Of a DNA stretch of 64,000 nucleotides, positions 8,629-55,500 are shown one piece after another. The DNA comes from Owenia fusiformis (Eukaryota > Annelida > Polychaeta > Sabellida > Oweniidae). The position numbers and the translations under genes were made by a program. The first letter of the stretch is position 1. Each line of letters starts with the position of its first letter. Below the pieces are notes generated by a model. The model was not told the DNA's origin, did no database searches, and saw nothing but the letters and a program-made list of their open reading frames with translations. The stretch covers positions 12,858,196-12,922,195 of the forward strand of contig CAIIXF020000004.1 in assembly GCA_903813345.2 (NCBI GenBank), in the 5' to 3' direction.

Positions 8629-8760
8629 TAGAACCTAAAAATGAACATGCAATAAGAAAATATCCATTCCAGGTGTTGTGATAGTCATTAAAATGTCTTC
8701 AACATGCTTAGGTTCAAGATGCATTATAAAATACCTATAAATCAACATGGCATTAACTAA

Positions 8761-8908
8761 CAGGTCAAATAGGAACATGCCCTAAAATAATAGATCTAAT
8801 AGGAACATGCCCTAAAATAACAGGTCAATTAGAAAAAGGCCCCAAAAACAGGTCAAATAGGAACATGCCCTAAAATATCAGGTCAAATAGGAACATGCCC
8901 AATAAGAG
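8761..8908 (-). repeat. 30-bp minisatellite built from the ECT2 stop-codon region
   Basis: Five units begin at about 8761, 8791, 8821, 8849 and 8879, four at 30-bp and one at 28-bp spacing. The gene-proximal unit contains the final ECT2 codons (Gly-His-Val-Pro-Ile) and the TGA stop at 8883-8885; the others repeat GGGCATGTTCCTATTTGA downstream on the coding strand with a few changes. Confidence 0.8.
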
Positions 8909-11900
8909 TCCGCCTTACAACATCCCCTAGAGATTGCCTCCTTTCAGCCTTAAAACGACTGAAGATAGACTTTCGTTTCTCTGGTTTGGGTATCTTGAAA
9001 CTGACATCAAATGAACTGTTAGGATCCTTTGCATTTTCCATCGGAATCTTGAAACTGCTGTCAAAAGATGGGTCTGATGATTGAGGTAGTGTGGGGATCT
9101 GGAAACTGCTGTCCAGAGTTGATCCTGACTGATTAGCTATGGGTATCTTGAAACCAAAACCAGCTTCAAATGATGCGTCCTCTATTACCTAAATACAATA
9201 ATTAATACAAAATTTCCAGTCAAATCTGTCAAAGGGCAAACTGATTAATCAGTGAATTTTTTTCAAAAAAACCTTTCTTACTAAAGTACTTTCTTACTAA
9301 GCAAATATTTGAGGAATCGTAACGTAAATAAGTAAGCAAAGTGGCTGTTGGAATGGAAAATAAGAAAATGTTCCTAAAAAGCACACGTAATAGTACTATA
9401 CAATTTTAATATTATATAACATACAATAAATAGCACAAGCTAGAAGACCTGCACATACTGACATATAGTGCAGTCAGAATGAGGGTTTGAGCGTGCGTTC
9501 AGAGGGATTTTATGGGACATAATTTTTTATGTTGCTAGTATGATTTTACATATTTTTATGGATTATTAGATCTTAGTTTTTCAGCTTTTAGATTTTGTGG
9601 CCATTTTACCCCCCATGGGCTATAATTTGGACCCCTACTATAAAATTGGGCTAGAACTCCAAAAATACTCAGTAGAATGTTTCCAAATTGCTATGGTATA
9701 TTGGTATGGGCTAACTAAATATACGATAACAATTTCAAGTCACATGTTTAAGTGGTTGCCATGGAAATGGATAAAACATACCCTTCGAGTGTCAATTTTC
9801 AGGCCAAATTTTCAGGAATGATAGAGTCATTTTGTGCATATTTTGTCACCAGTCTGTTAGGAAGGGTTAAAATGTGAATAGAAAACTTTTGTAATATGTC
9901 AGCAACAATCTTATGTAAAGATCAGTCCACAGAATCTCAGATTTTGGCCTTATATGGGTCTATGATTTATACAGGGGCCTATTTCACAGATTCGAACCCC
10001 CACATTGGATGGATGCTATAACTTTTGAAGTAAGGGAAATACAGTTCTCATTTTTTCAGATCTTCATAAATGACTGGTTTCAAGTATTGTATCATACTTT
10101 GGGAGCTGGCATATGATTGGTTGCCATGGTAACCAAGGTTTTATGGAAATTCTGACCCCCACATTGGAATGATGCTATAACATTCGAAATAAGGGTGAGA
10201 CATGTCTCATTTTTTCAGATCTTAGACAATGATTGATTTTAAGTATTCAATCAGACTTTGATAGCTGAAACTTGATTGGTTACCATGGTAACTAGGGTTT
10301 TATTGAAATTTGGACCTCCACAATTGATAAATGCTTTAACTTTTAAATTCAAGCAGATACAGATATCAGCTTTTCAGAACTTAAAAATAATACAACTTGT
10401 GTATTGTCTCTGACTTTGGGGGTTACAATTTACTTGGTTGCCATGGTAACCATGTTTCATTGTCATGGAAACTTCATTTTTGATTTCAGATGTACCTTCA
10501 TTTGAGAATGGTCAATACACAACATAGAACACAAAATTGCTCAAAATTATCATTTTACTCCTAATTTAACATTTTTACATGTATATCTGACAGTATTGGC
10601 TCATTCCATTCTACTAGTTCTCACACATATTCTACTAAGTTGTTTTTACTCATCATTTTATCTATTTTTGACCATTCTGGTATAAAGAATTCCTCGGGGA
10701 ATTCATAGTTCATTCATGCAGTGTTTGGCTTGGTAGAGCTGGGTTTAGGCTGGTGGGAATGTTTCCATACACAGGTTTGATGATTCACCCTCTTCAAATG
10801 TGAGAGAGTTGAAATGTCAATACCTTCATAAGTGAGGGCAGCACTGTTCTGTTTTTGAGAATACTAGTATCTCATGTGAAACAGCTCATCATAGTGGTAG
10901 TTATTTTTGTAATTCAGCTGTACTTTTGCAGGTGAACAATTTAACTTTGGATTTTATGGTATCAGGAATTTCTATATTGTTTCCTATTGAAGAAAACAAC
11001 TTTAAGAATTGTTTGTCTTCAGTTTCAGTTGATTTATTTTTCTTTTGTTCAGATCCAGTAATGCATTGAAGGCTAATATAGCTTCACATAGTACGTCGTC
11101 CTAAGTTTGCAGCTACAGGGGTTTGGTTGAGCTTCTGACATCTAAAGGGACAGAGTTCACATCAGTTGAGGTTCTTAATGTTGTCTTCTTCATAATAGGA
11201 AACAATATAGAAATTCCTGACACAATAAAATCCAAAGTTGAATTGTTCACCTGCAAAAGTACAGCAGAATTACAAAAATACATTTTTTAACTGACATCGA
11301 TAGATTATGATATGAGCTGGTTCACATGATATATTCTCCAAAACAGAACAGTACTGCCCTCACTTATGAAGGTGTTGACATTTCAACTCTTCCCGTCTTT
11401 CAAGATGGGTCCTTGACTGCTTTCATAGCAGCTAATGTAATGCAATGAATTACTTTGGAGCCAATGATGTACTCTTCCACCTTTGAAGAGGGTGAATGAC
11501 AAATCCTATATGTGGAAGTGGAAACATTCCCACCAGTCTCCCAGGGAGTTCACTATATATAAACCTTGAGGGGGATCCTCGGCTCAGGTGGGGTACTTCA
11601 GACATTTGGTATGGCCCAAATAGACCCAAACTTTAGGATCTGATATGAGAAATGAGAATGTTCTTCAAATTATGACTTGAGGTATGGCAATGGTCAGATT
11701 TTTCCACTTACTGGTATGAGAATGGTCTTGTAGTATGGCATTGATCTAGTATATATCCTTAATATGAGGTTGTTTTTGGATTGTTTTCCTCAAAGATCTG
11801 CCTTCTTCTTGGGGCATTAGACATTTTGAATGGCCATGTTTTTATATCTGGATATTTGATATCACATTGATCCTACATTTGGGCATTTGGTATGGCTTTT

Positions 11901-14900: not shown

Positions 14901-17900
14901 TAAATCGCCAGACTAGCGCAAACACGTTTTTACAATCTGAAAAATAAAAGCATTATTTGTCATTAACAAATTCATAGTGGACCAGTTTCTAAAATATAAG
15001 ATGACTTGAAAAAGTTTGGAAAAAACAGAAATATGAAACCTCATATTTTCTACTACTTGGAATGTTTTAAGCAAAGTGGATTATATTCCGTTATTTCAAT
15101 ATGAAATCAACAAAATCAAATTAAATTTGTAATTCATTAATTAGAGCAATCATGGTATTCATTTTTAGAAAAATTACATGGAAAAAATGTGATCAAAATC
15201 AAGTACCATAGTACTCTTTTGTACATCAACATATAACAGGTAAAACTCTAGAATGTACATACCCTCTGTTTCAATAATGTCCACTACCCTCTTTATAACC
15301 TGGAGTGGTAGCATCTCTAAGTGTTTATAAGCCTTCTGACTAGGGGCCTTGCTTGTTGGATTGGGACTCTTGGATAGCAAAACCTTGGTTCTCCTTTTAC
15401 AGATCTGAATAAAACATATAAAAACATAGTTAACAATTTACATTCATCCTAAGCTTTTTGTATATTTATAATTGAAACTGTACATTTACAATCTATTCCA
15501 ATCCTTTAAGATTTATTGAATTAACAATTTGCTATACATTTGTCTTTAATGGTCAAAAATGCAGATCCCCAAAATCTCATTAAAAATGAGACTCTGTCAA
15601 CAAGATTTCAAAGCTATTCAAATATTTCCCAAGGCATTTTAAGCTGCTATCTTAATTCAAATTGCAACTTGTTTTCGTAACAAATGCTTGCTCCTGGCTA
15701 GTTTAGCTGAGTATAACCTTTAATGAACAAAAGTTAGAATTTTCTTACCTCTAAGCTATCATTGAATAATGAGTATAACCTTTCCTTTAATGAACAAAAG
15801 TTAGAATTTTCCTACCTCTAAGCTATCATTGAATAATGAGTATAACCTTTAATGAACAAAAGTTAGAATTTGCTTACCTCTAAGCTATCATTGAATAATG
15901 AGTATAACCTTTAATGAACAAAAGTTAGAATTTGCTTACCTCTAAGCCATCACTGAATAATGAGTATAACCTTTAATAAACAAAAGTTGGAATTTGCTTA
16001 CCTCTAAGCTATCATTGAATAAAAACAGTGTGATGTGGTCCCCTTTGCCACTCAGTGAATCAGACAGCTCAATGACATCAACTTTGGCAATGAAAGACCT
16101 ATGGGACGACAATAAATTTGGCTGGAAAATAAAAACAAACATAATATACGGGGTTGAAAATGAACAATACGGATAATTTTAAATATGGCCCATAATGAAG
16201 TCACACATTAAAGCTTACATTGGTTCATTCTAGTTCAAATTAAAAGAAAGTTAATATGTAGTGAATATCACTGATTTAACAATATAAACACTCATCCAGG
16301 AAGCGAGGGGTTGTGGGTTCGATCCCCACTAAGGTGGACTGACCTTTTCACATCAGCCATTAGCTTTAGTTTAGTTTTAGTCATTTACTGTACATTATAC
16401 TTACTGGGCAGTTTTCTATCTCTCCTACAATGTCAAACATTGCTTTCTGGCCATCTGCCTTCCTCTTATTCTCATTGATAAGCCTGTTAATAGAATAGAA
16501 CATAGAATATCAGAGGAGTTTGTCATTAGAGAAATTGAACAGTGATCAATAATACTGCTACCAAGATCTATTTTCATTAGTCTCCTACTGTTAGATTTTG
16601 CAATCTTTGCAATGAACTTTCTCTTGATGTCCATACACCCTCCTGTGATTGATCTTAACCATTTAAGAGACAGAAAGTACATGCTTTTAAATGAAAGCAA
16701 AGATCACAGAAAAACTTACGTGAGAACTTTATTTAGTTGTCTTATGGCTTCTTCTATATGTGAGATGTCTGAATGTCCTTTGCTGGTTCTTTTCAATAAA
16801 TCTAAACAGAATATATTCATTATAATTTCATTGTTCCTGCCAATGTGATTGAGCAAAATATTATATGCAAATACTGAGTGATGAAGAAGGCAATGTATAA
16901 TAGTCAATTTTCTCTGGTTGCTTTTAAAAAAAATTGGCAGTTATTTTGAGGAATTTTGCGACTTTCTGTGTCTCATTTTCAATAATTTTGCCAGTTGTTT
17001 TAAATTGTTTTGCCAGTTGTCAGAAATTCTAATTAAACCATTGCATCATCTCTTGAAGATGGCTCTCGGGTTCATACCTTGAAGGAGTAAGACAATTCTA
17101 GGCAGCCTCTGTACAGGGTTAATAAATAGCTCAGCTAGGGTCTGTCTCCCACATTCTGGTTTACTTTGGCACACCTAAAATAAAATATTGAACCCAGTGA
17201 GGAATGTGATCTCTGGATGTCAACAATATTTATTTTTCATAATTTACCCCCTCGTTGCCTGATAGGGGTGGGGGTCAGAGGCTAAAAATCCCATGAAGAC
17301 CACCCTGAATCACTTGGCCCGATATCATTTTTCACTCAGATCGAGTGTTTCTGCAACTGTGCCAAGTTTGTTACTTTCCTGAAAAAGATGGACATCTGAC
17401 TCTGCTACAATATAAAGCAGTTCAACTAATAACCACACTTTAGTATTTATAATATTTTTCTAGGTTAATTCCTATATAATTTCTGATAAAGACTGATATG
17501 TTTTCTTATCCAGTGATCTCCCTAGGCGGGTTTAGGGTCCAACTAGGCGCAGCGCCCGGTAAAAAGGGTATGGTGAGATCACAGTTATCAATGTTAAAAG
17601 AGCTTAACTCTACAGGCACAGAGTATATCTTACCTTTAGGAAAGCATGGAACCTTGGTATAGTCTGATCACATTGGGTTAAAGTGGCTTTTGTATTCTCA
17701 AAGAAGTTAACAAATGGTGGGTAGGCCTTCATAAGCTCATCAGCCTGAAAGATAAATACAAATACATATATCTACATCTCTAATAACTTTTAACACATCT
17801 ATGTTCCCTTTATATGAAGGATGTAAAGTTAGCTAGGGTCTTTTCTGAGTTATATTTTAAACAAAAAATCTAAAGCAGTTCTGCGAAGGGTCTTGGGTTG

Positions 17901-28609: not shown

Positions 28610-31600
28610 ATGGCGACACAAAGAGTGGTCCAGTTAGTACGTCTTGGGCGTATGCCATATGGCACGACCTTAAAAATACAAAATGAGCTGGTACAAAGAC
28701 ACTTGGAAACAAGAGAGCAATCAGTTAGTGCCACAATGGGCAAGTCAAGTGAATTTCAGCAACAATTAAAGCTCAAAAATGAACATGATGAAATATTGGA
28801 CAAATTGATTTTAGTAGAACATGAACCAGTGTACACTATAGGGAAAAGAACTAAGGAGTATACCATTGAGGAAAGACAAAGACTTGAAGCTTTAGGGGCA
28901 GATTTCTACAAGACTAATCGTGGGGGATTGATCACATATCACGGGCCAGGACAACTAGTGGCATATCCTATTCTCAACCTGGCTAACTATAAACGTAGTA
29001 TTAATTGGTAAGACCTTTTCATCATTCAGGGGTTTCACCAAAAAATAACAAAATCCTCCACACAAACAAATCCTGGGGAGAGCACTGAGGTTTTTAGGGA
29101 TTTAAAATAGCCAAGGGTGAAAGGCCATTTTGGGTCCAGAAACAAAGCAGGTTTAATGGCTGAATCTGAAATGCTACAAAGGCACAGTCTTTCCAAACAA
29201 CGTTTTTTTGTAGATATGCTTCACAGTGATCTCCCCAGTATAAAGCAAGTGGGTGAAGCACTCACCTGAGATTTTAAAATCAGGCTTGCAGTCTTGCACC
29301 CACCTGAAAATCAATTTGTTCCCACTTGAAAATGAGAAAAACATGAAATTGGGTACATTTTGATCAATTTTGGTTGGGAGTGTGAAAATGGGAATTTTGC
29401 ACCCTCTCAAGAAAAAAATCCTGTGGAGAACACTGTTTCATTGAAGCTATTTAATTCTGCTGCTGAGCAACAGGGTACATTGAGGAAAATTAAATGAAAA
29501 TTTTCTAAAAATAAACAAGTGAGTACATTTAAAGAAAAAAAGATAACATGAAACTATAATTAAAATCTATCATAGTGGGCCATTGACCCATGAGTATACA
29601 CTGCATATGTGTGATGTAATTTTATTATATTTCAGGTATATGTGCACATTAACAAAAACGATCATAGGCACTTGTAGACAATTTAACATAGAGGCTTCCT
29701 CTTCATCTGATGTAGGAGTGTGGGTTGGGAACAATAAGATATGTGCAATGGGTATGTACTGTACATGGCATAGGTCCAGGAACATGTATATAATTAATGC
29801 AAAATCAAAGTGTCCCATCGGAGCTTGACTGTCCCCCATCTTCATTCACTCGGCTCCAATCGATTGATGAATGCAGTGGAAACTGGATTGTGCAAAGATA
29901 ACTGTAATCTCTTAGGAAACTTTGATTTTCCATCAATTATACATCTTCCTGGGCCTATGGTACATGTACATTTTATTTACTCTTTAAAGGGTTCCGATTA
30001 GCATCCCGTATAAAAACAATATGGCGGCTCCAGGCGAATCAACTGGATCAGTCCATTTTTAAGAAATAAGGGGAGTTCTGTAAAATCCAGTTTATTGAAA
30101 TTGTCTTTGAGATAAAGTAATCCGTTTAAATAATGATTTTGAAAACGTTATCCAAAGAGTGATTGCGTTCAAATAATACATGTACAACAGCCAATATAAA
30201 TTCTTGTATTAGAAACCGGTTTGTCTTGCTTTGTTATCCCATCGAACGAAGTTCGGAGGGATATAGGGAACGCCTCCGTCCGTCCGTCCGTCCGTACGTA
30301 CGTCCGTACGTACGTACGTCCGTCCGTACGTACGTACGTCCGTACGTACGTCCGTCCGTCCGTCCGTCCGTCTGTCCGTCCGTCCGGGCAATAACTCAAA
30401 TACCATTGGCCCGATTTTGTTCATATTTTGTACACATATACCCTATGGGGGTAGAAGTTCTGCTCGATAGCCGATTTTCAAAATGGCCACTCATTTCAAA
30501 ATGGCGGCCATTTTAGTGACGATTTTACAGTAATTTGGGTGCAATATGTAAAACTGTAATAGCAATATGTTTTAAATGTAAAAAAATTATAAAGGACATT
30601 AATAATGCTACAAATGTAGATATTAAAAAAGCACATGGCAGCCATCTTGAAAAATGGCGGGCTTTACTCGTCATTTTACGATTTTTGCTGTAACTCAAAA
30701 AATAGTGGAGCGATTTTGTTCATATTTGGTGTGTGAATATTATAAGCATTGCACACTGTCTAAAGACACTTTTGGTAGAAGGCGGCCATTTTGAAAAATG
30801 GCCGCCATTTTGAAAAATGGCCGCCATTTTAACGTATTTTACTATAACTCGAAAAGTAGTGGAGCGATTTTGTTCATATTTGGTATGTGAATACTATAAG
30901 CATGGCACACTGTCCTATGACACTTTTGGTAGAAGGCGGCCATTTTGAAAACAATTTTGAAAAATGGCCGCCATTTTAACATATTTTACTATATCTCGAA
31001 AAGTAGTGGAGCGATTTTGTTCATATTTGGTATGTGAATACTATAAGCATGGTACACCGTCTATTTCTAATGACGCTTTTGGTAGAAGGTGGCCATTTTG
31101 AAAAATGGCCGCCATTTTAACATATTTTACTATAACTCGAAAAGTAGTGGAGCGATTTTTTCATATTTGGTATGTGAATACTATAAGCATGGTACACCGT
31201 CTATTTCTAATGACGCTTTTTGTAGAAGGTGGCCATTTTGAAAAATGGCCGCCATTTTAACGTATTTTACTATAACTCGAAAAGTAGTGGAGCGATTTTG
31301 TTCATATTTGATATGTGAATACTTTAAGCATGGCACATTGTCTAATAAAACTTTGGGGAGTAGTCGGCCATTTTGAAAAATGGCCACCATTTTTATGTGT
31401 GTTATTTTACAAGTACATGTGCGATTTTTCAAAAATTTTAGAGGTGGCTACTTAAAAGCATATTATTTCTTCTGATGACAACTTGGCTAGTGAGGAACCA
31501 TTTTGAAAATGGTGGCCTTTCAGGTGTGTTGTTTTATGATATTTGCGCTTCGTTTGTAAAAATGCCAGCCATTTCTGTTCGATGGGATTCGCTACGCTTT

Positions 31601-33410
31601 GGCGTTGCCGTTGTTCTGGTTTCATTTGTAGGATATTTCATATGCCAAGCTGTGTGCTATTACTTTATGGGGAAATTTAGATGCCAATTTTTCCTTATTA
31701 TACACAAATAGAAGATCCTGAAACTTCACCCATAAATGTGGAATTGATTTGTCAAAATAAAAATCACCCTTTTATAAATGTGTGACGATCTATAATATAC
31801 TGATGCTATATAACAGTTAGAGGTGTTGACACAACGACCTCGAACCTGTGAACCCTTGAGTATTATTCCGGGATCGGGCCTTTTATACTAAACGGTGAGC
31901 AACACCAGAAACGAGCGTTTGATTTGCTGAACGATATGCGTCACCCTTTAAGTCTAGCTTCAACCATTGTGAGTCTCTCCCCCTTCTACACACCCAAGGC
32001 TACACAACTCCCTTGTGCGAGAAGGTGTGTAGTCAAGTAGTGGGAGGACCAGGGAGGGGGTCTCAGGGGCTTGTAGCTAAACTAAAAGAGCACCTAAAAT
32101 GTACTTAAATTAGTGAAGCTTCAGAATTGGAAAATGCAATGATTGTAGTATAAATACATTGTGAAAGGATTCGTAAGACTTTGAATGAGATTGGTAGTAG
32201 GACATGAGTTCATTCAGTTACCGACAATTCATCAAGTTATGCCTTGAATTATTTTATTGCAAATGCTTTTGTACACAGTCCCCTCAACTGTCAACTTAAA
32301 ATATATGAAATTATGAGTGAAATCAATTTTACTGAAAAAATATATAATGCATATTTGGACAGTTTGTATGGCATTTTGGTGTTATTTTGGTTGGTATGGG
32401 AACACATTGATAGTTTTATCTGAGGATTCAGTCTAGGACCCCTGGCTAATTTTGTATACAGTGAACCCCCAGTACAGGGGTTTAATCATATTGTGTATTT
32501 CATCAATATGCATGGCATAGCCTTGAATTGCAATACTGACATGACATCATTTAATTGTATTGTACCTTGTATTTCCAGGTGTACATGCCAGTACATATGT
32601 AGGTTCATCACTATACATGGAATTGCCCTGAATTGCAACACAGACATGACATGGTTTAATCATATTGTACCTTGTATTTCCAGGTGTACATGCCAGTACA
32701 TATGTAGGTTCATCACTATACATGGAATTGCCTTGAACTGCAACACTGACATGACATGGTTTAATCATATAGTACCTTGTATTTCCAGGTGTACATGCCA
32801 GTAGGTTCATCACCATGCATGGAATTGCCTTGAATTGCAACACTGACATGACATGGTTTAATCATAATGTACCTTGTATTTCCAGGTGTACATGCCAGTA
32901 CATATGTAGGTTCATCACTATACATGGAATTGCCTTGAACTGCAACACTGACATGACATGGTTTAATCATATTGTACCTTGTATTTCCAGGTGTACATGC
33001 CAGTACATATGTAGGTTCATCACTATACATGGAATTGCCTCGAATTGCAACACTGACATGACATCGTTTAATTGTATTGTACCTTGTATTTCCAGGTGTA
33101 CATGCCAGTAGGTTCATCACTATGCATGGAATTGCCTTGAATTGCAACACTGACATGACATGGTTTAATCATATTGTACCTTGTATTTCCAGGTGTACAT
33201 GCCAGTAGGTTCATCACTATGCATGGAATTGCCTTGAATTGCAACACTGACATGACATGGTTTAATCATATTGTACCATGTGGCCTTGTTGGTAAGGGGG
33301 TGACATCTATCAGTCAGGAACTGAATCAAAATGTGACAATTGAGGATGCAGAAGGTCCTTTCCTGAAATCCTTTTCAGACTCTTTTAAATGTGAGATTGT
33401 TGAAATGTAA
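28610..33410 (+). CDS. LIPT2: LIPT2 copy A, octanoyl-[acp]:protein octanoyltransferase
   Basis: Transfers octanoate from mitochondrial acyl carrier protein to the H protein/lipoyl domains, the first step of lipoate synthesis. Exons: 28610-29007, 29636-29751, 33193-33410; phases 2 and 1 join to give 243 aa (human LIPT2 is about 230). LipB/LplA fold hallmarks: [12 protein letters not shown] (~104-115), catalytic Lys167 in NNKICAMG and catalytic Cys201 in [14 protein letters not shown]. Exon 3 gives [12 protein letters not shown], as in human. Position 196 is Asn where human and copy B have Glu. Intron 2 (3.4 kb) carries a CCGT microsatellite, a ~145-bp satellite and six decoy copies of the exon 3 acceptor. 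This is the better candidate for the working copy. Confidence 0.93.
29222..29436 (-). repeat. Interspersed repeat (AAGTGGGTGCA family), copy 2
   Basis: Starts CAGTGATCTCCCCAGTATAA and ends GGAGAACACTG; internal GCACCCAC and CCCACTTGA phrases are the complement of the 5940-6121 copy. Lies in LIPT2 copy A intron 1. Confidence 0.5.
30277..30388. repeat. (CCGT/ACGT)n microsatellite
   Basis: About 112 bp of mixed CCGT and ACGT tetranucleotides, following ATCGAACGAAGTTCGGAGGG. The frames that cross it (repeats of SVRPYVRP or GRTDGRTD) are artefacts. Confidence 0.9.
30600..31400. repeat. ~145-bp tandem satellite with AAAATGGCCGCCATTTT motif
   Basis: Five units recognised by AGTAGTGGAGCGATTTT-like phrases whose GGAG ends at 30710, 30864, 31011, 31152 and 31292 (spacing 154, 147, 141 and 140 bp). 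Each contains a short palindrome AAAATGGCCGCCATTTT. Half-units extend on both sides, to about 30490 and 31520. Confidence 0.8.
32500..33192 (+). repeat. Satellite of LIPT2 acceptor/exon 3 units, array A
   Basis: Six decoy copies of TATTTCCAG followed by GTGTACATGCC lie at exon-equivalent starts 32579, 32684, 32789, 32886, 32991 and 33096; the real exon 3 starts at 33193. Spacings are 105, 105, 97, 105, 105 and 97 bp; the 105-bp form has an 8-bp ACATATGT insertion after GCCAGT. Each unit copies the acceptor plus about 90 bp of coding sequence up to the catalytic Cys codon. A partial unit without acceptor starts near 32500. Confidence 0.95.
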
Positions 33411-40313: not shown

Positions 40314-43300
40314 ATGACATCACAAAGAGTAGTCCAGTTAGTACGTCTTGGGCGTATGCAGTATGGTATTACTTTAAACATACAAAATTCACTTGTACAA
40401 AGACACCTGGAAACAAACGAGCAATCAGCTTTAGGCAAGTCTAATGAACTTCTGCAACAATTAAAGCTAAAAAATGAACATGATGAAATATTGGACAAAT
40501 TGATTCTAGTTGAACATGAACCAGTGTACACAATAGGAAAAAGAACTAAGGAGTATACCCTTGAGGAAAGACAAAGACTTGAAGCTTTAGGAGCAGATTT
40601 CTACAAGACTAATCGTGGGGGTTTGATCACATACCTTGTTCCAGGACAACTAGTGGCATATCCTATTCTCAACCTGGCTAACTATAAACCCAGTATTAAA
40701 TGGTAAGACCTTTTAGTGATCTTTTCAGCATAGATGTTATACTTATAACTGACGTTATACTCTCTAGAGGTTTCTAGAATTATTCAATGGCCGAGGCTGA
40801 AAAACCATCCGGGCCCAGAGAGAAAGAGAGAGAATAGGTAAAATTGCTTCCTTATTTTGACAAAAAGATTAATAACAAAGGATTTTGAGGTGTTACACAG
40901 GCACAAAATCCTTCATTTCAAAGCTTTTGGTAATAAATTACGGTTTTGTAATGAAGCAATCTAACCCTGCCACTGGGTAACAGGCACCATTGAGGAAGAT
41001 CAAATAAAAAAAATTCACCCTGGTAAACAACTAAGCACCTAGAAATAAGTTAAAGCTACGTGTATGCCCACAGAACAAACAGTTAGAATTACAACATTCA
41101 AATTTAAAATTATGTACATTAAACAATTTGGATAAAGGGAAAAAGATCAACTTCCATGACGGTCCTGACTTTTATCGAAAAGGTTAAAAAAGCATTGGTG
41201 GTGTCTTGATCCTATTAAGTAAACTTGAATTTTATAGTATTCTTGGTGTTGCACCCAATTTGATTATCGGCTATTTTACTCAAAGAATTCAGAAAACGTC
41301 ATACAAAAATACTTTATCAGACTCTACATTGATCTATTGTGGGATCCCTCAGGGGTCAATTTTCGGACATTTGTTCTTTATCTTATACATACATGATATA
41401 TATATATTTCCTCTCCACGACTGATTCTATGCTATTGGCGGCGGATAATCCAATTTACTGATTAAAGGGAAATATCTACATGACCCTGCAGTTCTTCTCA
41501 ATACTGAATTACTGAATCGAAATGCGTTGGGCCTATTACAGTTCATTATTGCAAAACAATATATTTGCAGGTTGTTGTCGTTAGTCATGGAACACAAAGG
41601 GGTAAAAGAAAGTGCGTTAGTTCTAGCTTAATATTTAATGTGTGTCAACACTCTATCTTTCAGAGCTTACTTTTCACCGTGATTTCACGACTTATCCAAA
41701 TCCCTATAAGTATTTTGGGGATCGTATCTTAATTAATCAGATGTCTTTATCATTGACTTTTCATCATCACAAATTCTACTTGAATATCAATTTGGAAGTT
41801 CACATGTATATGGTATACATCAGTTAAATATTATAAGGCTTCTTCTTTATCTGATGCTGGTAAACAATATGTGGTAATATAAGTGATGTAATTTTATTAT
41901 ATTTCAGGTATATGGACTCATTAACAGATGCCATAATAAACACTTGTAGACAGTTTAACATAGAGGCTTCCTCTTCATCTGATGTTGGAGTTTGGGTTGG
42001 GAACAATAAGATATGTGCAATGGGTAGGTAATGGGTACTTCTATTTAATTTGGCGGACCCACCAAATTAATAATATGAGAATATTTGATAAATTATGCTT
42101 TATGATTTAAAAGAATAGCACAAATCTTCATAATCAAGGAATGAATTAATGAATTACGAATGAATATTTGATCAATATTTCACAAAGGGAATTAATTCTT
42201 CATAGCTGACTTCTCTGAAGACGAGTTGGTTTCCAACAAACCACCATTTTGGCACGATGCGTCTTATTAGTGTACTTAACTTTTAGCATTTTTCCAGTTG
42301 CCTTGAACTGCAACACTGACATGGTTTAATCATAGTGTACCTTGTATTTCCATGTGTACATGCCATGCCAGGTTCATCACTTGTTTATACATAAAGGACC
42401 TTATACACCCTCCATTGGGATCTCCCCATAGGAAAAAATAATTCATCTGATTTTTCAAAATGAGTATTCTGCTTCAATTATTACATTTATATGCACACTA
42501 GTATCTTGTTTACCTATATTCAGCACTGTATTGATGTATAGGCCACTTATTAGGGTCATAATTCAATCATAAAGTGTAGAGGCATAGATTCCAAACCAGG
42601 AAGTATTTTTGTGTCTGTCAAAATCCATTTACATCCTACGCATCCCTGCATCTTATCCAAATATGTTACTACATAATGAAATATAATAGTATAATCTTTG
42701 GTTTTACAAACTTGTATGATATTTGATAAGTGTAAAGTTGTTTTTGGAGCATTTTTCGATAGCCATTTTGTAGGGAAAAAAATGATGAAAAAATGTACAA
42801 TCTTATAATTTTACGTATGACATGTATGACCTGAATCGATTGCAAACTTCATATTTGCACATTTGATGAGATAAACCATTTGTGTCGTATTGTGAAATTA
42901 TTAGACTCCAGATTGAAAATCTGGAGTCTATTGTTTTTGCCTGTTTTCTTTTTATTAGACTCCAGATGAAATCTGGAGTCTATTGTTTTCGTCAGTTTTC
43001 TTATTATTCTTTTTCTTCTTATTATTAGACTCCAGATGTCAATCTGGAGTCTATTGTTTTTGCCAGTATTCTTCTTCTTCTTCTTATTATTTTTCTTTAA
43101 GAGTTTTTTCAATAACTATAAGGTATCCAGTAAAGACCATTATACAGTTCATTTCGGTTCAGTATCTAGTTGGTGGGAAATTGGGTCAAATTTTTATCTA
43201 GGTCAAAGGTCAAGAACTAGGTCAAATCCAGTACTTTGTCACTTTTTTCGATTTCCTCGGTCGTCCTTCAATATTTTTGATCCGTTTTTTTTTCATTGTG

Positions 43301-46300
43301 TTCCTCATAAAAAAGTAGAAAATCTAGGATCGATTTAGTTTTTTGGTATCTCAAACCGATTTCGAGATATCAGTGTCCGAAAACGAGGTCCAAAAAAAAG
43401 TTCTCCGAATCCAATGTCCAGAATATCAGTCTTATAGGAGATTTTCTCAGGATTCCGAATCTGAAAACCAAATTTCGATTTGACTTCCGGTTCAGAAGTT
43501 ATGGCGTTTTGAAAATTCAAAAATCGCTAAATTTGGTGCCCCATGTTAATTCAATGGGAAAAAATATTTTTTTGAAGTGTAAAATACGAGATACAGACTA
43601 AGCACAGCTAAACATAATGGAAGCCCATAAAAGAAAGGGACCTCAAAACCTTCTTTTCATAAAAATTTGGACACCAAAAAGCCTAGGTCAAAATCTAGGT
43701 CAAATTCAAAGTTTTTCCTTATTTTTGCGATTCTGACACTACAGATTAAATATATTCTCCAAAATTTTGTATACATGTAGCCAAGAGTGTGCTAATAGTG
43801 TTAGCCTTTTGCCGTCAGAAAGTATTTTGCCCCACTTTTGAGATATGGTGTCCGAAAAGTAGGTCAAAATAAAAAATTCTCCAAATTTAACGTTCGAGTT
43901 ATGAATTAAGTATAGAATTTTCTCAGGAATCCGAATCTGCAAATCAAATTTCGATCCGACTTCCTGTTCGGAAGTTATGACATTTTGAAAGCTCAAAAAT
44001 CGCTAAATTTGGTGCCCCATGTTATGTCAATGGGAAAAAAGATTTTTTTGAAGTGTAAAATTCGAGATATAGACTAAGTACAGCTTAAAATAATGAAAGC
44101 CTATGAAAGAAGGGGACCTCGAAGGCTACCTAACTTCAAAATTTGGACACCAAAATCCCCAGGTCAAAATCTAGGTCAAATTCATAGTTTTTCCTTATTT
44201 TTGCGATTCTGACACTATGTTTAAATAATTTGCTTCAAAATTTTGTATACAGGTAGGAAAAAGTGTGCTTATAGTGTTAGCCTTTTGCCGTCAGAAAGTA
44301 TTTCTACCCACTTTTGAGATATGGTGTCCGAAAAGTAGGTCAAAATAAAAAGTTCTCCAAATTGAACATATGAGTTATGAATTAAGGGTAGAATTTTCTC
44401 AGGAATCCGAGTCTGCAAACCAAATTTCGATCCGACTTCCGATTCGAAAGTTATGGCGTTTTGAAATTTCGAGAAAAATTGATCTGATGGTATCCTGATA
44501 GAAAGTCAAGAGTAGAGAAGAAAATATTGAAAAATGCATCCATCCTTCCTTTGTGATCCTATCGTATCCTTCTTATCTACCTTTCCTTCATATCCTCTCC
44601 TTCCTATTCTATTCCTTCTTCATATTCTATTCTATCATTCTTTCTTATTCTATCCTATCGTTCCTTCCTATTCTAGCCTATCCTTCCTTCCTTTTTCATC
44701 CATCCATCCATCCATCCATCTTTTTCTGGATGACTCAGCTTATTTTGGATGACTCGGCTTATTCAGGATGACTCGGCCAAAAAAAGTCTAGATCTGGAGT
44801 CTGAAATTGAACTTCGTTCAATTTCCAAAGTCTAGTTATTATTCTAAGCAAGTTTTCTCAATAACCGTAAGGTTTTCAGTAAAGTCAGTCATTTGGTCAA
44901 TTTAGGTCCAGAATCTAGTTCCTCGGAAATTGGGTCAAATTTTTATCTAGGTCAAAAGTCAAGAACTAGGTCAAATCCAGTACTTTGTCACTTTTTTCGA
45001 TTTTCTCGGTCGTCCTTCAATATTTTTGATCCGGGTTTTTTTCATTGTGTTCCTTATAAAAAAGTAGGAAACCTAAGGTCGATTTAGTTTTTTGATATCT
45101 CAAACCGATTTCGAGATATCAGTGTCCGAAAACGAGGTCCAAAAAAAAATTCTCCGAATCAAATGTCCATGATATTTATCTTATAGGAAATTTTCTCAGG
45201 ATTCCGAATCTGAAAACGAAATTTCGATCCGACTTCCGGTTCGGAAGTTATGGCGTTTTGAAAACTCAAAAATCGCTAAATTTGGTGCCCATGTTAAGTC
45301 AATGGGAAAAAATATTTTTTTGAAGTGAAAAATACGGAAAAAAGACTGAGTTCAGCTTCATATAATCAAAGCCTTTAGTAGAAGGGGACCTCAAAAGCCA
45401 TCTAGCTTTAAAATTTGGACACCGAAATGCCTAGGTCAAAATCTAGGTCAAATTCATAGGTTTTCCTTATTTTTTCGATTCTGACACTACACTCTAATTA
45501 TATTCTTCGAAATTGTGTATACATGTAGCCAAGAATATGCTAATAGTGTTAGCCTTTTGCCGTCAGAAAGTATTTTGACCCACTTTTGAGATATGGTGTC
45601 AGAAAAGTAGGTCTAAATAAAAAGTTCTCCAAATTTAATATATGAGTTATGAATTAAGGGTAGAATTCTGTCAGGAATCCGAATCTGCAAACCAAATTTC
45701 GATCCGACTTCCGGTTCGGAAGTTATGGCGTGTCCGAAAAGTAGGTCAAAATAAAAAAGCTCCAAATTTAACGTATGAGTTATGAATTAGGGGTAGAATT
45801 TTGTCAGGAATCCGAATCTTTCAATCGAATTTCGATCCGACTTCCTGTTCGGAAGTTATGGCGTTTTGAAATTTCGGAAAATCGATCTGATGGTATCCTG
45901 ATAGAAAGTCAAGAGTAGAGAAGAAAATGTTGAAAAATTCACCCATCCTTCCTATCTGATCTTATCCTATCCTTCCTTTCTATCCTTCTTCGTATCTTTT
46001 CTATCCTTTCTTCGTATCTTTTCCTTCCTATCCTTCCTATCCTATCCTATCCTTTCTTCCTATTCTATTCTATCCTATCCTTCTTTCTTATTCTATCCTA
46101 TCGTTCTTTCCTATTCTATCCTATCCCACCTTCCTATTTTATTTATCCATCTCTTTGTAGATGACTCAGCTTATTCTGGATGACTCGGCTTATTCTGGAT
46201 GACTCGGCTAAAAAAGTCTAGATCTGGAGTCTGAAATTGAACTTCGTTCAATTTCCAAAATCTAGTTATTCTTCTTCTTTTTTCTTTCTTCCTCCTAACA

Positions 46301-49300
46301 GATTTTCTCTCCAACTATAACATCTTACTTAATCCAACTTACATGGCTAACTAAAGACTGTATCCGGCTTTCTGGGAAATTAGGTCAAATTTTTATCTAG
46401 GTCAAAGGTCAAGAACTAGGTCAAATCTTACATTTTCAACATTCTTCATCATATCTTCGTCAATATTCATCGTAACTCCTTCATCTTTTTTTCATCATGT
46501 AGCTTAGAAAAAGGCAAATCAAAGATATGACATCAGAATTTTGATTACCGATTTTGAGATATGGCGTCCGGAAAGTAGGTCAGAACAAAAAGTTCTCCAA
46601 ATTCAACATGTGAGTTATGAAATAAGTGTAGGATGATCTCAGGAATCCGAATCTGCAAACCAAATTTGAATCGGACTTCCGGTTCGGAAGTTGTGGCGTT
46701 TTGAAAGCTCAAAAATCGCTAAATTTGGTGCCTATGTTAAGTCAATGGGAAAAAAGACTTTTTCGAAGTGTAAAATACAAGATATAGACTGAGTACAGCT
46801 TAACATAATTAATGCTTATAAAAGAAGGGGACCTCAAAAGCTACATAGCTTCAAAATTTGGACAACAAAATGCCTAGGTCAAAATCTAGGTCAAATTCAT
46901 AGTTTTTCCTTATTTTTACGATTCTGACACTACACTTTAATAATTTACTTCAAAATTTTGTATACAGGTAGCAAAGAGTGTGCTAATAGTGTTAGCCTTT
47001 TGCCGTCGGAAAGTATTTTGACCCACTTTTGAGATATGGTGTCCAAAAAGTAGGTCAAAATAAAAAGTTCTCCAAATTAAACATATGAGCTATGATTTAA
47101 GGGAAGAATTTTCCCAGGAATCCGAATCTGCAAACCAAATTTCAATCTGACTTTCGGTTCGGAAGTTATGGCGTTTTGAAAGCTCAAAAATCGCTAAATT
47201 TGGTGCCCCATGTTATGTCAATGAGAAAAAAGATTTTTTTGAAGTGTAAAATACCAGATATAAACTGAGTACAGCTTAACATTCTGAAAGCCTATAAAAG
47301 AAGGGGACCTCGAAGGCTATTTAGCTTTAAAATTTGGACACCAAAATGCCTAGGTCAAAATCTAGGTCAAATTCATAGTTTTTCCTTATTTTTTGCGATT
47401 CTGACATTACACTTTAATGATTTGCTTCGAAATTTTGTATACAGGTAGCCAAGAGTGTGCTTATAGTGTAAGCCTTTTGCCGCCAGAAGGTATTTTGACC
47501 CACTTTTGAGATATGGTGTCTGAAAAGTAGGTCAAAATAAAAAGTTCTCCAAATTTAACGTAGGAGTTATGACTTAAGGGTAGAATTTTCTCAGGAATCA
47601 GAATCTTTAAACCAAATTTCGATCCAACTTCTGATTAGATAGTTATAGCGGTTTGAAGTCTCGAAAAGTCGATATGATGGTATCCCCATGTTAAGCCAAT
47701 GGAGTCGAAGTTAACATTCTTAAGAGTTCTCTAAATGTCTATATTCTAGCTGACTCAGCTTATTCTGAATGACTCAGTTTACAAGTATTTGGATGACCCA
47801 GCTTAGAAAAAGTCTGAAATCTGGAGTCTTAAATTGAACTTGTTCAATTTACATGTCTAGTTAAGTTTGCAATCGATTCAGGTCATAGTGTATTTTTGGT
47901 ATTTCTGTGATAATCAATGGAAACCAATGGCCTCTATTGGGATCTGCTGATATCCTCATGTTAAGTCAATCGTGCACAGCCCCATGTAAGTCAATACAAC
48001 CTTACTGAACGAAATGATCCCTATCTCAGCTTATGTGTGTCCGAGCACTTTAATATTTTCCTATGTATTATATGACATTTTATTCTTCATGTTACACCTA
48101 CGAATGATTCATTTTGTCCATAGGGATATTTGCCAATAATTGCACCTTGTCCTTTATTCCTTTGGTTAACAATAATAGACATGCGATTGATTGCCAAAGT
48201 TTTATAAAAAACTTTAGCGGCAATTTTAGACAATATGAATAGGAATGCATTAACATTTACAAACTGATCAAAGTAATGTTATAACTCATATAAGAAACAA
48301 TAATCCCACGGGCCAGGGATGAGTTAACACATGCATGCAAAAATTAGCCAAACCGATCAATTTGGCTCAAACTTTGATTCACAAAATGACTCATTAGTTC
48401 TATTAATTTTTCATTTAATGAATTATCTAAATCTTCATCACCATACAAAGGAAACTGAATTTTGTCAACTGTGTTCAAACTCTGAACCAAAAGATGAAGA
48501 TCTAAAGGTTCATCACTATGCATGGAATTGTCTTGAATTGCAACACCGATATGACATGGTTTAATCATATTGTACCTTGTATTTCCAGGTGTACATGCCA
48601 GTAGGTTCATCACTATGCATGGAATTGCCTTGAATTTCAACACTGACATGACATGGTTTAATCATAGTGTACCTTGTATTTCCAGGTGTACATGCCAGTA
48701 GGTTCATCACTATGCATGGAATTGCCTTGAATTGCAACACTGACATGGTTTAATCATAGTGTACCTTGTATTTCCAGGTGTACATGCCAGTAGGTTCATC
48801 ACTATGCATGGAATTGCCTTGAATTGCAATACTGACATGACATGGTTTAAGCATATTGTACCTTGTATTCCCAGGTGTACATGCCAGTAGGTTCATCACT
48901 ATGCATGGAATTGCCTTGAATTTCAACACTGACATGACATGGTTTAATCACATTGTACCTTGTATTTCCAGGTGTACATGCCAGTAGGTTCATCACTATG
49001 CATGGAATTGCCTTGAATTGCAACACTGACATGGTTTAATCATATTGTACCTTGTATTTCCAGGTGTACATGCCAGTAGGTTCATCACTATGCATGGAAT
49101 TGCCTTGAACTGCAACACTGACATGACATCGTTTAAGCATATTGTTAGTACCTCAGTGTAAATACTCGCATCTGATTGGTCAATTAGCGGTCAACATTTT
49201 TGCCTGTACCTCACTTGTGCATCATGGGATATCATATTATTGACCGCGTATGTTACTGTACTACACTTGTGAATTATGGGAAATATGACGTCATAATGTT

Positions 49301-51470
49301 TACAGAAAAAACATGGTAGATGGACATTTTGTAAACGTTGATGCACGGACCTGAAGAAAGTAAAGTCAGTGGTTGATGAAAGTGATATTTTGACTTTACT
49401 AGTCGACAAGTATAGCAAAAATACGAATAGAAACGTAAAATTAACATTTCTTTACTACAGTCTGTTACACTGCTTCAAAGGCAAGCAGTTGAACCTGAAA
49501 ATTAAGAAATCTATAGATCATTGTGCCATAATATATAGAAAAATATATTCATATTGCACACGAATGACATTTGTATATTTCAGATTATTCAGTGTTTAGT
49601 GCAATAAGCCTGTGCCCTCTTGTAATTTTAGGTCTGTCCGCCATGCTATTTTTTTGAGAATTAACATGGTAGAGAAGCATCAAAATATAAGAGGTTACAG
49701 AGTTTATGAGCCAATTTACAAGCAATCCAACATATACAAATGTCATTCGTGTGCAATATGAATATATTTTTCTATATATTATTGCACAATATTATTTAGA
49801 TTTCTTATATTTCAGGTTTAACTGCTTGCCTTTGAAGCAGTGTAACAGACTGTAGTGAGTTTGCAGTGATGTTCCGAAAACAAGAGAGTTTAACTAATAT
49901 CGCTAGCGTGGTTCGGAGAAAAGATTGTGAAATGAAGCCATATGATTGATGATTGTCGTCTGTATGTGTATTATTAGTTTCTTCTGACTAACAAAACAAT
50001 TGTAGACCTCTCCATTCGGTCAACCGTCGAAATCATATACCTCGACTGTAAACCTTGAAACTACTGTTGACCTCGACCTTCGGTCTCTGTCAACAGTAGT
50101 TTCTCGGTTTACAGTCTCGGTATACAATTTTGCCGGTTGACCTCTGGTGAGGTCAACAATTGTATACTGTACCTTGTTTTTCATGGTGTACATGCCAGTA
50201 GGTTCATCACTATGCATGGAATTGCCTTGAATTTCAACACTGACATGACATGGTTTAATCACATTGTACCTTGTATTTCCAGGTGTACATGCCAGTAGGT
50301 TCATCACTATGCATGGAATTGCCCTGAATTGCAACACTGACATGACATGGTTTAATCATATTGTACCTTGTATTTCCAGGTGTACATGCCAGTAGGTTCA
50401 TCACTATGCATGGAATTGCCCTGAATTGCAACACTGACATGTCATGGTTTAATCATAGTGTACCATGTATTTCCAGGTGTACATGCCAGTAGGTTCATCA
50501 CTATGCATGGAATTGCCTTGAATTGCAACACTGACATGTCATGGTTTAATCATATTGTACCTTGTATTTCTAGGTGTACATGCCAGTAGATTCATCACTA
50601 TGCATGGAATTGCCTTGAACTGCAACACTGACATGACATGGTTTAAGCATATTGTACCATGTATTTCCAGGTGTACATGCCAGTAGGTTCATCACTATGC
50701 ATGGAATTGCCTTGAATTTAAACACTGACATGACAAGGTTTAATCATATTGTACCTTATATTTCCAGGTGTACATGCCAGTAAGTTCATCACTATGCGTG
50801 GAATTGCCTTGAATTGCAACACTGACTTGACATGGTTTAATCATATTGTACCTTATATTTCCAGGTGTACATGCCAGTAGGTTCATCACTATGCATGGAA
50901 TTGCCTTGAATTGCAACACTGACATGACATGGTTTAATCATATTGTACCTTGTATTTCCAGGTGTACATGCCAGTAGGTTCATCACTATGCGTGGAATTG
51001 CCTTCAATTGCAACATTGACATGACATGGTTCAATCATATTGTACCTTGTATTTCCAGGTGTACATGCCAGTAGGTTCATCACTATGCATTGAATTGCCT
51101 TGAATTGCAACACAGACATGACACAGTTTGATCATATTATACCTTGTATTTCCAGGTGTACATGCCAGTAGGTTCATCACTATGCATGGAATTGCCTTGA
51201 ATTACAACACAGACATGACACGGTTTGATCATATTGTACCTTGTATTTTCAGGTGTACATGCCAGTAGGTTCATCACTATGCATGGAATTGCCTTGAATT
51301 GCAACACCGACATGACATGGTTCGAGCATATTGTACCATGTGGCCTTGTTGGTAAGGGGGTGACATCTATCAGTCAGGAACTGAATCAAAATGTGACAAT
51401 CGATGATGCAGAAGGTCCTTTTCTCAAATCGTTTTCAGATTTCTTTAAATGTGAGATTGTTGAAATATAA
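40314..51470 (+). CDS. LIPT2: LIPT2 copy B, octanoyltransferase paralogue with altered HGPGQ motif
   Basis: Tandem duplicate of copy A in the same orientation. Exons: 40314-40702, 41908-42023, 51253-51470; the phases join to 240 aa. Strong similarity to copy A throughout, with catalytic Lys164 (NNKICAMG) and Cys198 ([11 protein letters not shown]) kept and Glu193 as in human. However the near-invariant RGGxxTYHGPGQ motif reads [12 protein letters not shown] (Leu108, Val109), replacing the conserved His and Gly of the acyl/lipoyl pocket. Intron 2 is 9.2 kb, filled by an exon 3 acceptor satellite split by two large insertions. The frame is intact, so it is either recently decaying or altered in function. 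Confidence 0.88.
41190..41430 (+). pseudogene. LINE reverse transcriptase fragment in LIPT2B intron 1
   Basis: Plus-strand frame 41206-41424 contains [20 protein letters not shown], the jockey-type RT motif (usually GIPQGSILGPLLF..YIND). It is truncated on both sides. Intron 1 of copy A, 628 bp, has no such insertion. Confidence 0.7.
42296..42385 (+). repeat. Degenerate outlying LIPT2 exon 3 unit
   Basis: TTGCCTTGAACTGCAACACTG, then GACATGGTTTAATCATAGTG, TATTTCCATGTGTACATGCC and AGGTTCATCAC. The acceptor AG is lost (CCATG). Only one unit lies here, 6 kb from the main array, showing the array was split by insertion. Confidence 0.8.
42902..43060. repeat. TAGACTCCAGAT...ATCTGGAGTCTA palindromes
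   Basis: Three consecutive short palindromes (about 42902, 42957 and 43026) of TTAGACTCCAGAT / ATCTGGAGTCTATTGTTTT. Partner half-sites TCTGGAGTCTGAAATTGAAC occur near 44794 and 46222, and a variant near 47819. They look like nested element ends. Confidence 0.6.
44537..44790 (+). repeat. CT-rich microsatellite plus 24-bp GATGACTCGG repeats
   Basis: TCCTTCCTATTCTATCC-type pyrimidine runs (44537-44725), then three ~24-bp units GGATGACTCGGCTTATT (44727-44780). The same pair occurs at 45938-46210, and the second part alone at 47748-47810. Confidence 0.75.
45938..46212 (+). repeat. Second CT-rich microsatellite plus GATGACTCGG repeats
   Basis: Pyrimidine-rich TATCCTTCCT runs (45945-46140) followed by three GATGACTCGGCTTATTCTG units. 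It sits at the same place in the larger module as the 44537-44790 copy. Confidence 0.75.
49146..50165. mobile_element. 1-kb insertion within array B
   Basis: The satellite stops after CATATTGT (about 49144) and resumes at GTACCTTG (about 50169). The insert carries a family F foldback (49453-49857) and a hairpin at 50005-50150 (CTACTGTTGACCTCGACC / CTGTCAACAGTAG, with outer GGTTTACAGTC complements). Confidence 0.65.
49453..49857. mobile_element. Foldback element, family F, copy 3
   Basis: Arms CACTACAGTCTGTTACACTG-like at both ends and GTGCCATAATATATAGAAAA inside. The core (GCAATAAGCCTGTGCCCTCT, TTAACATGGTAGAGAAGC) matches copies 1 and 2. Inner arms match copy 1; outermost arms differ. Confidence 0.7.
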
Positions 51471-52592: not shown

Positions 52593-55500
52593 CTATGCGC
52601 TACACCCTGCAACAGCGTTATTGCTGTTCGTACAGATCCATTGTAGATAGGTGGCTGTTCTGACGTACACGCTTGGCATACCAATACACCCAACAACACC
52701 CCAGCTGGTAATCCCAGCGACCACATTTTGACCATTCAGATCACAGCTCATTGGGCCGCCACTATCACCCTGTGAATTAATACAAATATTCAATATCACT
52801 ATTCAGTGGCCAGGTTTTCAGGTTTAGCGGTTTTATTTCATGTTGAACTCTTTTTTGCAACCGTTTTGAAAGAATAAAAGAAATGGCCTGGTCGCTGAAT
52901 CATTAGGGAGTTTAAGCTTGCATATAAAATCGAAACGCCAACCTATACGTATGACCAATCGCCCATACATATGCATCGCTTAAATATTTCTGTTGACGCT
53001 TAGGTTGTGAAAAACATTGCATGCTTAAACTCCCTAATTTCTCCGAAATACGGTCAATTGACCACATAAGGGCCCTACCTGACAAGATCCCTGTCTGCCA
53101 GTTTCATCATATATACATATATGTAAATCGGCATTAGCTTGTGCCCAAAAGCTGGTACATTCTTCTGGTGATAGTATAGGGAGGGTGGCCTTCTTCAAGA
53201 TATCAGCTGCTGTCCCATCTACAATAAAACCAAAATTGTAAAATAACATCACAAAAACAATATTCTCCGTACGACATACATTTTAATAACTTAAACCAAT
53301 TTTCTGTCAAATCTTTGAAGAAATGAAACGTCATGATCTATAATGATGCCGTACATACAGTATAATTAACGCCCGTGGGCTCTTTGAAGGATGATTCTGA
53401 AAACAGAATCTCTGGTCTCTTTGACATAGTTAGCCATTGGGTGTTACCCCAGACATAAGTCAGGCAAGACATTTTACAGAAATATATTTTAGACGTAGTT
53501 TTAACCTACTGTAGGTTTAACAAAAAATGCGGAAATGAAATCCACATACCTCCTCACCACTATATTTGCTCACTCGTTAATTTTTGCCTCGCAATTTTTG
53601 ATCCTGTTTGCCATGCTTACTTTATTTTATACCTCTATCCTTGACCGAGGCTGTGTCTTTTTTCACAGTATATGATTTAGCCTTGCCCAAGTCGGTTTCT
53701 TTTACTTATCTTGCATTGATTTCTATGATGGCGGTAATAATTCAAGATCAGATAAGTAAAAAATACAGACTTGGGCAAGGCTATATATAATTGAAATCCA
53801 GATAAATAAATAAATAAATAAGGGTTATGTACTGGGAGGTTTTGGATATGGGGTTTATCCAGAGGGAGATATGCATATCTACCTGAGGGACCGTAGGGAC
53901 CGAAGGTAGATGTGCATACGAGGGATGAACCAAATATCCAAACCGACCGTACATAACTGCTTTATCCTATACCAAGTAGAGTTTTCAGGGGCATGTGGCC
54001 ATTTCAATAGTACAAGGTGTAAAAATAAACAAATCATTCATATGCAAAGTCATTTTATTGCATTTCCACTACTTACCGGAAGCGGGAAGATATGCACGGA
54101 AGCGGGAAGATATTCACCGAAGCGGGAGATATGGAGGTACTGGATATGGAAACCTCAAAATCAGGATACGGGATATATCTTACCAACTTATCTCCCTAAA
54201 ACTCTACTTGGCATAGGATAAAAGATAATATTATATATGTCAATACTTTGACAAGGCTATTCATACCTCCAGCTGATGTGTCTCCCCATCCAGTAATGAT
54301 GCACCTTTGGCCAGCAAACGTCGTCTGGTTGTTTGGAGGGAGAGGAACAACGGCTTTTGTGGCTGCATCAATAGTGATTGGGCTGGAGAGATTAAGGAGT
54401 GCGATATCATTGGGGAATCCTACTGAGCCATCTTGGATGAAGTCCTCATGCTGAAATGTAATGAAATGGAATACTATGTATATAGTACAACTTTGAATTA
54501 TACATTTTAGATCAGATTGTTCATTTGATATTAAGGTCCTGATTTCAATACACTGAGTCACACGATTTGCCTTATCCTCCGAACGCAGGGATCCAGACAT
54601 CATCCACTACGTTCCTTCCTTCCTCCTTTAGAAGGAGGTACGAGTTCAGGAGGTCTGTGTTCGGAGGATGATGTTGGCCATGCCTCAAACAAAGTTAAAT
54701 AAATTATTTTACGGGATTGATGAACAATTTCACGACCCATCGTGTATGAAATAGTATGACATTCAACTTTAGTATTATTTGTATATAAATCTTAGATATT
54801 GCCCTTTAATCTCTAGTCGACGACAATACTCATTAAATTTAAAGTAGAATACGCAAGATTTCTAATATAGATTTTTCTATGTTGAGCAGTAGAGATCAGA
54901 TCTGCGGATCTTCCAGACAAAATTTTCTGCAACCTTGACAAATCCGGTGACACCGCGCGCTCATGAACGACCTGTTCCACACCCGTGAATCTTCAAAAGG
55001 TATTACCTGTATAATGGAGCTCACAGGGATAACTTCTTCAACACCCGTGACGTCAACCCTATTCCTTATATGGGCGCCGGCCACTATCCTGTAATCCGTA
55101 GCAGCGCTGCAAATGTCAACGATAAATTAATTTACATCAATTGGAAGGGTATCCTATGATGTATGAGTACGGGATATCACTTTTATTCAACAAGTTAATC
55201 ATAGTGAATATATTACGATCGGCCATACATCAAACTGCACTGATACTTTTGAATAACATAAACTTTTGAACATAGTCCATTTCAATTCTGAGTCATGCGT
55301 CGATAAAACATAAAGAAGCAATCAAAAGACCACAATGCATTATCGTATGGAAAAATACTTTCATATTTTACACGCAAAATATTGTATGTTGGACTATTTG
55401 TTTGGCTTAAACACGTGTGGGACATCCGACCCCCGTAGACGGTCTGCACTTTCATTCCCATAGTAGTGCAATACCCTGGAATCCTTGAAATCCATTAGCG

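Follow-up and report, generated by a model that had tools for sequence, protein, structure and literature searches.

A tandemly repeated intron-exon boundary in two paralogous LIPT2 genes

Minisatellite-like tandem duplications of an intron-exon boundary, called "mirages", have been described in amphioxus in Adh3, in the globin genes BflGb6 and BflGb9, in troponin C and in PGBD5 (PMC3087553, PMC3902484). According to these reports, AG/GT signals occur in many but not all mirage units, the units of a cluster evolve in concert except at its edges, and their copy number is unstable between haplotypes or somatically, as for BflGb6, whose two haplotypes carry 6 and 3 units of 150-160 bp; the authors suggest, with support from reverse transcription PCR (RT-PCR), that splicing is undisturbed (PMC3087553, PMC3902484). 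Here, we describe repeats of this type in a stretch of 64,000 nucleotides (the window, i.e. the whole stretch of DNA analysed), which contains two tandem genes for LipB-type lipoyl(octanoyl) transferases (LIPT2), LIPT2A upstream and LIPT2B downstream. An earlier note on this DNA knew of no described satellite of this kind, a claim that has to be withdrawn, as the amphioxus mirages had already been published. We regard it as very probable that the LIPT2 arrays are intragenic boundary minisatellites of the mirage type, spread by unequal exchange and gene conversion, and that splicing still mainly uses the real acceptor.

Anatomy and origin of the LIPT2 arrays

The two genes are predicted to encode full-length LipB-type enzymes, scoring 161.8 and 155.8 bits against PF21948 (cut-off 27) and 164.5 and 159.2 against TIGR00214 (cut-off 83.55). 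With exon ends read from the sequence alone, without annotation or RNA, exons 1 to 3 lie at 28610..29007, 29636..29751 and 33193..33410 in LIPT2A and at 40314..40702, 41908..42023 and 51253..51470 in LIPT2B, all on the plus strand, giving products of 243 and 240 amino acids, respectively. Exon 2 ends at 29751 in LIPT2A and is followed by the donor GT at 42024 in LIPT2B; exon 3 begins at the real acceptor in both genes and, in LIPT2B, carries the full C-terminus. The PCG motif with its Cys is kept in both genes and HGPGQ in LIPT2A only. HGPGQ is also present in the three solved LipB sequences found, and exon 1 of LIPT2B reads LVPGQ in its place, given which the activity of LIPT2B may be lost or changed.

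The repeat unit consists of the intron 2 acceptor and ~89 bp of exon 3, and ends just past the codon of the PCG Cys. Between 48589 and 51253, the end of LIPT2B intron 2 carries 18 acceptor-equivalent positions (17 decoys and, at 51253, the real acceptor), separated by 97 bp (14 spacings), 92 bp (two) and 1122 bp (one, where an insertion lies). AG is kept at 17 of the 18 positions, hence in 16 of the 17 decoys; the sole AG-less position of the array, 50186 (TTTTTCATG), adjoins the insertion. The upstream half of the array (48507..49145) comprises a leading partial unit and the decoys at 48589, 48686, 48778, 48875, 48972 and 49064, and the downstream half (50164..51252) has 11 decoy positions, every 97 bp from 50186, the one without AG, to 51156. 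Tandem Repeats Finder (threshold 50) gives scores of 1101-1203 (three rows) and 2041 to these two halves, respectively. The insertion between them (~49146..50163) contains two inverted-repeat pairs. It is probably a mobile element and looks young: the best 40 of 302 candidate assembly matches of a 152-bp piece, itself included, are 99-100% identical. The LIPT2A array (32482..33192) consists of a degenerate leading unit followed by the decoys at 32579, 32684, 32789, 32886, 32991 and 33096 before the real acceptor; all seven positions have AG, and the spacings are 105 and 97 bp. A further, broken unit, with AT instead of AG at its acceptor, persists as a relic early in LIPT2B intron 2 (~42298..42384, right edge placed by eye). 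All of these features are on the plus strand. In nearly every unit, GTGTAC directly follows the AG. Exact copies of GTGTACATGCC, a sequence inside an invariant run, served as the cutting points between units; the regular spacings indicate that no array unit was missed.

Two further observations concern the same introns. LIPT2A has units of 105 bp, a length divisible by three, and open frames that stay open across several of them (32424-32804 and 32773-33111, plus strand) repeat the Cys-containing stretch. Within LIPT2B intron 2, the region 42897-47860 is rich in repeats, with internal duplications of period 476-477 and, by eye, TTAGACTCCAGAT...ATCTGGAGTCTA motifs near its ends.

Searching the 498-Mb assembly with the 97-mer returned 29 matches, all of them in the window (LIPT2A, LIPT2B and the relic), and with the LIPT2 protein 31 matches, all at LIPT2A or LIPT2B; these counts are lower bounds, and the assembly may have gaps. 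Because all 29 matches of the 97-mer fall at LIPT2A, LIPT2B or the relic, the satellite was most likely made by the LIPT2 gene itself and not captured by it. Capture of a pre-existing satellite by LIPT2 is extremely improbable, since the unit encodes a conserved stretch of LipB through the Cys, and we rejected it, no unrelated locus being among the 29 matches. We give just as little credence to an assembly artefact in which misassembly inflated the number of copies. The copy number of a tandem array can be miscounted and a single assembly is at hand, but the units are individually distinct, LIPT2A and LIPT2B carry different unit types, and one array is interrupted by an insertion. Most of what the earlier note had read from LIPT2B stands: our recount returns its 18 positions, its mostly exact 97-bp spacing, its usable acceptor at all but one position (~16 decoys with AG) and its unit of acceptor plus ~90 bp of exon 3 up to the Cys codon. 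The derivation of the array from the acceptor and exon of its host gene is likewise borne out by a unit that encodes part of LipB and by matches found only at LIPT2 loci, and the search away from LIPT2 that it proposed for the 97-mer revealed, within the limits of these lower-bound counts, no genome-wide satellite.

Divergence of the units and probable exchange between the paralogs

Of the 27 units, 22 were compared: A0, B0 and B6, each of them incomplete or interrupted, were dropped, as were the two real exons. The mean distance between decoys is 4.2% within LIPT2A, 5.3% within LIPT2B and 5.2% between the two genes (largest 10.3%), while exons 1-2 of LIPT2A and LIPT2B are separated by a synonymous divergence (dS) of 0.30; the arrays are thus far more alike than the genes that carry them. 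Decoy unit A6 even has the same sequence as B14 and B5, when the 5-bp deletion of B5 is left out. As unconstrained sequence that split together with the genes should differ by about dS, yet the decoys are ~5% apart, the two arrays appear to have exchanged sequence after the gene duplication. Units average 4-5% apart; at the edges, A0, B0 and B16-B18 seem by eye to have diverged further.

In the exon-derived part of the 22 decoy units, we counted 10 synonymous and 24 nonsynonymous distinct changes. This share of synonymous changes (29%) is near the 24% expected without selection under a transition weight of our own choice; no codon constraint is therefore seen in these 22 units, and selection on decoy codons was dropped as a candidate. 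Change in the decoys is thus near-neutral. No AG has changed among the 22 acceptors at which these units end (20 decoys and 2 real ones), an outcome with a chance of 0.29 at the mean divergence, so that AG retention needs no selection; note that decoy 50186, which has no AG, stands outside this test, as the insertion-cut unit B6 was among those dropped. Selection holding the decoy acceptors was also set aside, AG retention being not significant and the low variation of the AG|GT core, which we noted, a weak sign.

The first 89 bp of LIPT2A exon 3 are identical to decoy units A6, B14 and B5 (deletion again left out). This exon has Asn (residue 193 of LIPT2A) where LIPT2B and human LIPT2 have Glu, and its Asn-His-Ile-Val-Pro-Cys matches most decoys; the solved LipB sequences that we aligned have Thr at this position. 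This suggests that the array overwrote exon 3 of LIPT2A.

Decoys, real acceptors and the choice between them

Each transcript of these genes would offer 7 or 18 near-identical acceptors, of which only the last leads to the whole enzyme, making the pair a natural test of duplicated splice sites. The 40 nt upstream of the real acceptor of LIPT2A are identical to those of two of its six decoys. Since the units are joined ~8 nt before the AG, the pyrimidine stretch and the likely branch site of every acceptor, real or decoy, that follows a full unit are derived from exon sequence. The sequence motif yTnAy, as distinct from a mapped branch point, is found at -25 in all six LIPT2A decoys, in 13 of the 16 AG-bearing LIPT2B decoys and at both real sites.

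We joined the decoys to exon 2 in silico. With 10 of the 16 LIPT2B decoys that have AG, the message reaches the Cys codon, followed by seven codons (I-S/P/F-R-C-T-C-Q) and a stop, which would swap the last 42 residues of the predicted product for seven others. Of the remaining six, two read Tyr in place of Cys, three reach a stop sooner, and in one the frame enters the insertion and the Cys is lost. The ending Ile-Ser-Arg-Cys-Thr-Cys-Gln-stop once foreseen for any decoy-spliced LIPT2B message is thus right, allowing for Ser, Pro or Phe at its second residue, for those 10 decoys, the other six ending earlier or in altered form. As for LIPT2A, four of the six decoys stop before the Cys and one after it, and the decoy at 32789 reads through the in-frame 105-bp units to 278 amino acids.

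How could such arrays arise and be tolerated? The join inside the unit links the exon sequence ...ACC[A/T]TGT to the intron sequence ...ATTTCCAG. An early tandem duplication would have fused the point of exon 3 just past the Cys codon to a point ~8 nt before the AG of intron 2, and the TGT at this join may be the microhomology by which the founding duplication occurred. Unequal exchange and gene conversion would then have multiplied the 97-bp unit, carried copies between LIPT2A and LIPT2B and, in LIPT2A, overwritten the exon itself. The real acceptor would now have its branch site, with yTnAy at -25, in the exon-derived part of the last decoy. Because the local context hardly separates the real acceptor from the decoys, we infer that it is picked by context beyond the repeat, namely the portion of exon 3 that is not repeated and the 3' end; RNA data could reveal how the right site is chosen where the local sequence hardly helps. 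The array is most likely without function.

Several points weigh against this account. Comparing the 40 bases upstream of the real LIPT2B acceptor with those of the 16 decoys that have AG gives 3-7 differences for each decoy, so that local context in this gene is not wholly alike between real acceptor and decoys. The longest invariant run of the aligned units, 17 columns across AG|GTGTACATGCCAGTA, exceeds that of shuffled columns (p = 0.014), and columns on the acceptor side vary less than the others (7 of 39 vs 26 of 58, p = 0.008, for regions picked post hoc); the invariant AG core could reflect weak selection on the decoy acceptors. The evidence that the LIPT2A exon was overwritten is no more than suggestive, with 4 differences in 93 coding bases of the unit vs 64 in 627 elsewhere (p = 0.085). 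Lastly, correct splicing of these genes is presumed by analogy with amphioxus.

If the decoys were used, part of the pre-mRNA would be spliced to them, yielding truncated enzyme or messages with a long 3' untranslated region, and the output of LIPT2 would be lowered or tuned by unproductive splicing. The persistence of AG in 16 of 17 LIPT2B and six of six LIPT2A decoys, the yTnAy motif upstream of most of them, the position of the donor, which is closer to the decoys than to the real site, and the location of the longest invariant stretch at the AG|GT core would all fit such use. Nevertheless, AG retention is expected from recent homogenisation (p = 0.29), the decoys show no visible codon constraint, and the amphioxus mirages are suggested to leave splicing undisturbed; we consider such use of the decoys unlikely, and a function of the decoys, as far as it can be judged from their sequence, unlikely as well. 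A bolder version, in which the arrays exchange actively, converting the real exon next to the catalytic Cys, moving between the paralogs and supplying the true branch site, and in which a low level of regulated decoy splicing tunes LIPT2 output and protein lipoylation through copy number, seems to us unlikely. It is also conceivable that each unit serves as a recursive splice site or zero-length exon, its AG|GT combining an acceptor with a new donor, so that the intron is removed stepwise and the decoys are harmless. The GTGTAC that follows AG in nearly every unit invites this idea, but, compared by eye, it departs from the donor consensus GTRAGT at +4, +5 and +6, and becomes weaker still once joined to exon 2 (TGG|GTGTAC). 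With the donor half fitting so poorly by eye, we hold recursive splicing to be very unlikely.

Other genes and comparison with known systems

A boundary array of the donor side lies in the neighbouring, ECT2-like gene (15708..16022, minus strand). There, an exon end and its donor are present five times, spaced by 62, 62, 62 and 67 bp, with the real donor GT at 16001 and decoy donors at 15939, 15877, 15815 and 15748, all five starting with GTAAG or GTAGG; the 5 assembly matches of the unit all lie within 15708-16022. The gene is recognised by an open frame with a BRCT0 domain, 7.5 kb upstream, and by a RhoGEF match below the cut-off, and its exons presumably belong to one gene. A 30-bp repeat at 8744-8900 (minus strand) spans the stop codon that ends the open frame 8883-9188, and would be a repeat of a coding/3' untranslated boundary; this frame is possibly the last exon of the ECT2-like gene. 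Downstream of LIPT2B, an open frame with a trypsin domain occupies 54196-54606 (minus strand). Elsewhere, none of 44 loci that belong to other genes (2 linker, 12 globin and 30 kinase loci) showed a repeat of period >=25 within 100 bp of a matched end. Boundary arrays are therefore not present at every gene, but no rate can be derived, the loci being best matches and not a random sample, match ends not being exact exon ends, and many kinase matches lying in long open frames.

The genome itself carries haemoglobin genes of annelid type. Three exons at 27.03-27.08 Mb of contig C6 match the annelid erythrocruorin (haemoglobin) linker domain above the cut-off, four globin matches, of extracellular type, adjoin them, and one of these matches has giant-haemoglobin chains as its best solved relatives; for one linker exon searched alone, no solved structure was found. 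The genome is therefore most likely that of an annelid. A search for GFP-family genes, made with amphioxus in mind as the host, had no hit, but neither had its controls, so that it carries no weight; a COX1 search, aimed at the mitochondrial code, likewise had no hit. An annelid genome would take mirages beyond cephalochordates, all cases named "mirage" that we found in the open-access literature being from amphioxus. Beyond the systems compared below, we found no further case of a boundary array in that literature, which mostly leaves out subscription papers.

Three other systems bear on the LIPT2 arrays. In human IFI6 (6-16), a minisatellite provides multiple splice donors, two units of which are used as alternative donors (Turri 1995, via PMC4526556). 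As in LIPT2, a tandem repeat multiplies the splice site of its own gene, on the donor side in IFI6 and, in LIPT2, on the acceptor side with a 97-bp unit that includes coding sequence. The IFI6 unit is 12 bp long. Intron gain through tandem duplication of an AGGT-containing segment has been put forward in the Rogers model and for ATP2A1 and the potato RdRp, where an intron-exon structure was duplicated (PMC4974935). The LIPT2 unit also contains AG|GT, but its extra copies lie inside an existing intron and imply no new one. Human genes in segmental duplications have internal tandem repeats at exon-intron boundaries that vary between recent paralogs and alter splicing (PMC2812944). They share with LIPT2 boundary minisatellites that differ between paralogs, whereas host and repeat are different, and their transcript changes are supported by RNA, the LIPT2 arrays being known from DNA.

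The closest relatives remain the amphioxus mirages. BflGb6 repeats an intron end and an exon start, as LIPT2 does, and in BflGb9 it is the 3' exon boundary that is duplicated, as in the ECT2-like gene. The unit spans a boundary of its own gene in both LIPT2A and LIPT2B, it is private to that gene in 29 of 29 matches (a lower bound; we take this property to be implied by the papers), and the splice signal is present in many but not all units, at 17 of 18 positions in LIPT2B and seven of seven in LIPT2A, but not in the relic. The differences lie in the host, a cephalochordate there and a genome with annelid-type haemoglobin genes here; in the number and size of units, 6 and 3 of 150-160 bp in BflGb6 against 7 and 18 sites mostly 97 bp apart in LIPT2; in the array being common to two paralogs, with exchange between them; and in normal splicing, which has RT-PCR support in amphioxus. 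LIPT2 thus has more copies than the BflGb6 example, plus a donor-side case in the next gene. New here are a host with annelid-type haemoglobin genes, the 18 and 7 sites, the exchange between paralog arrays and the neighbouring donor-side array; the kind of repeat itself is not new, and what makes this locus notable is its copy number, its host and the exchange between its paralogs.

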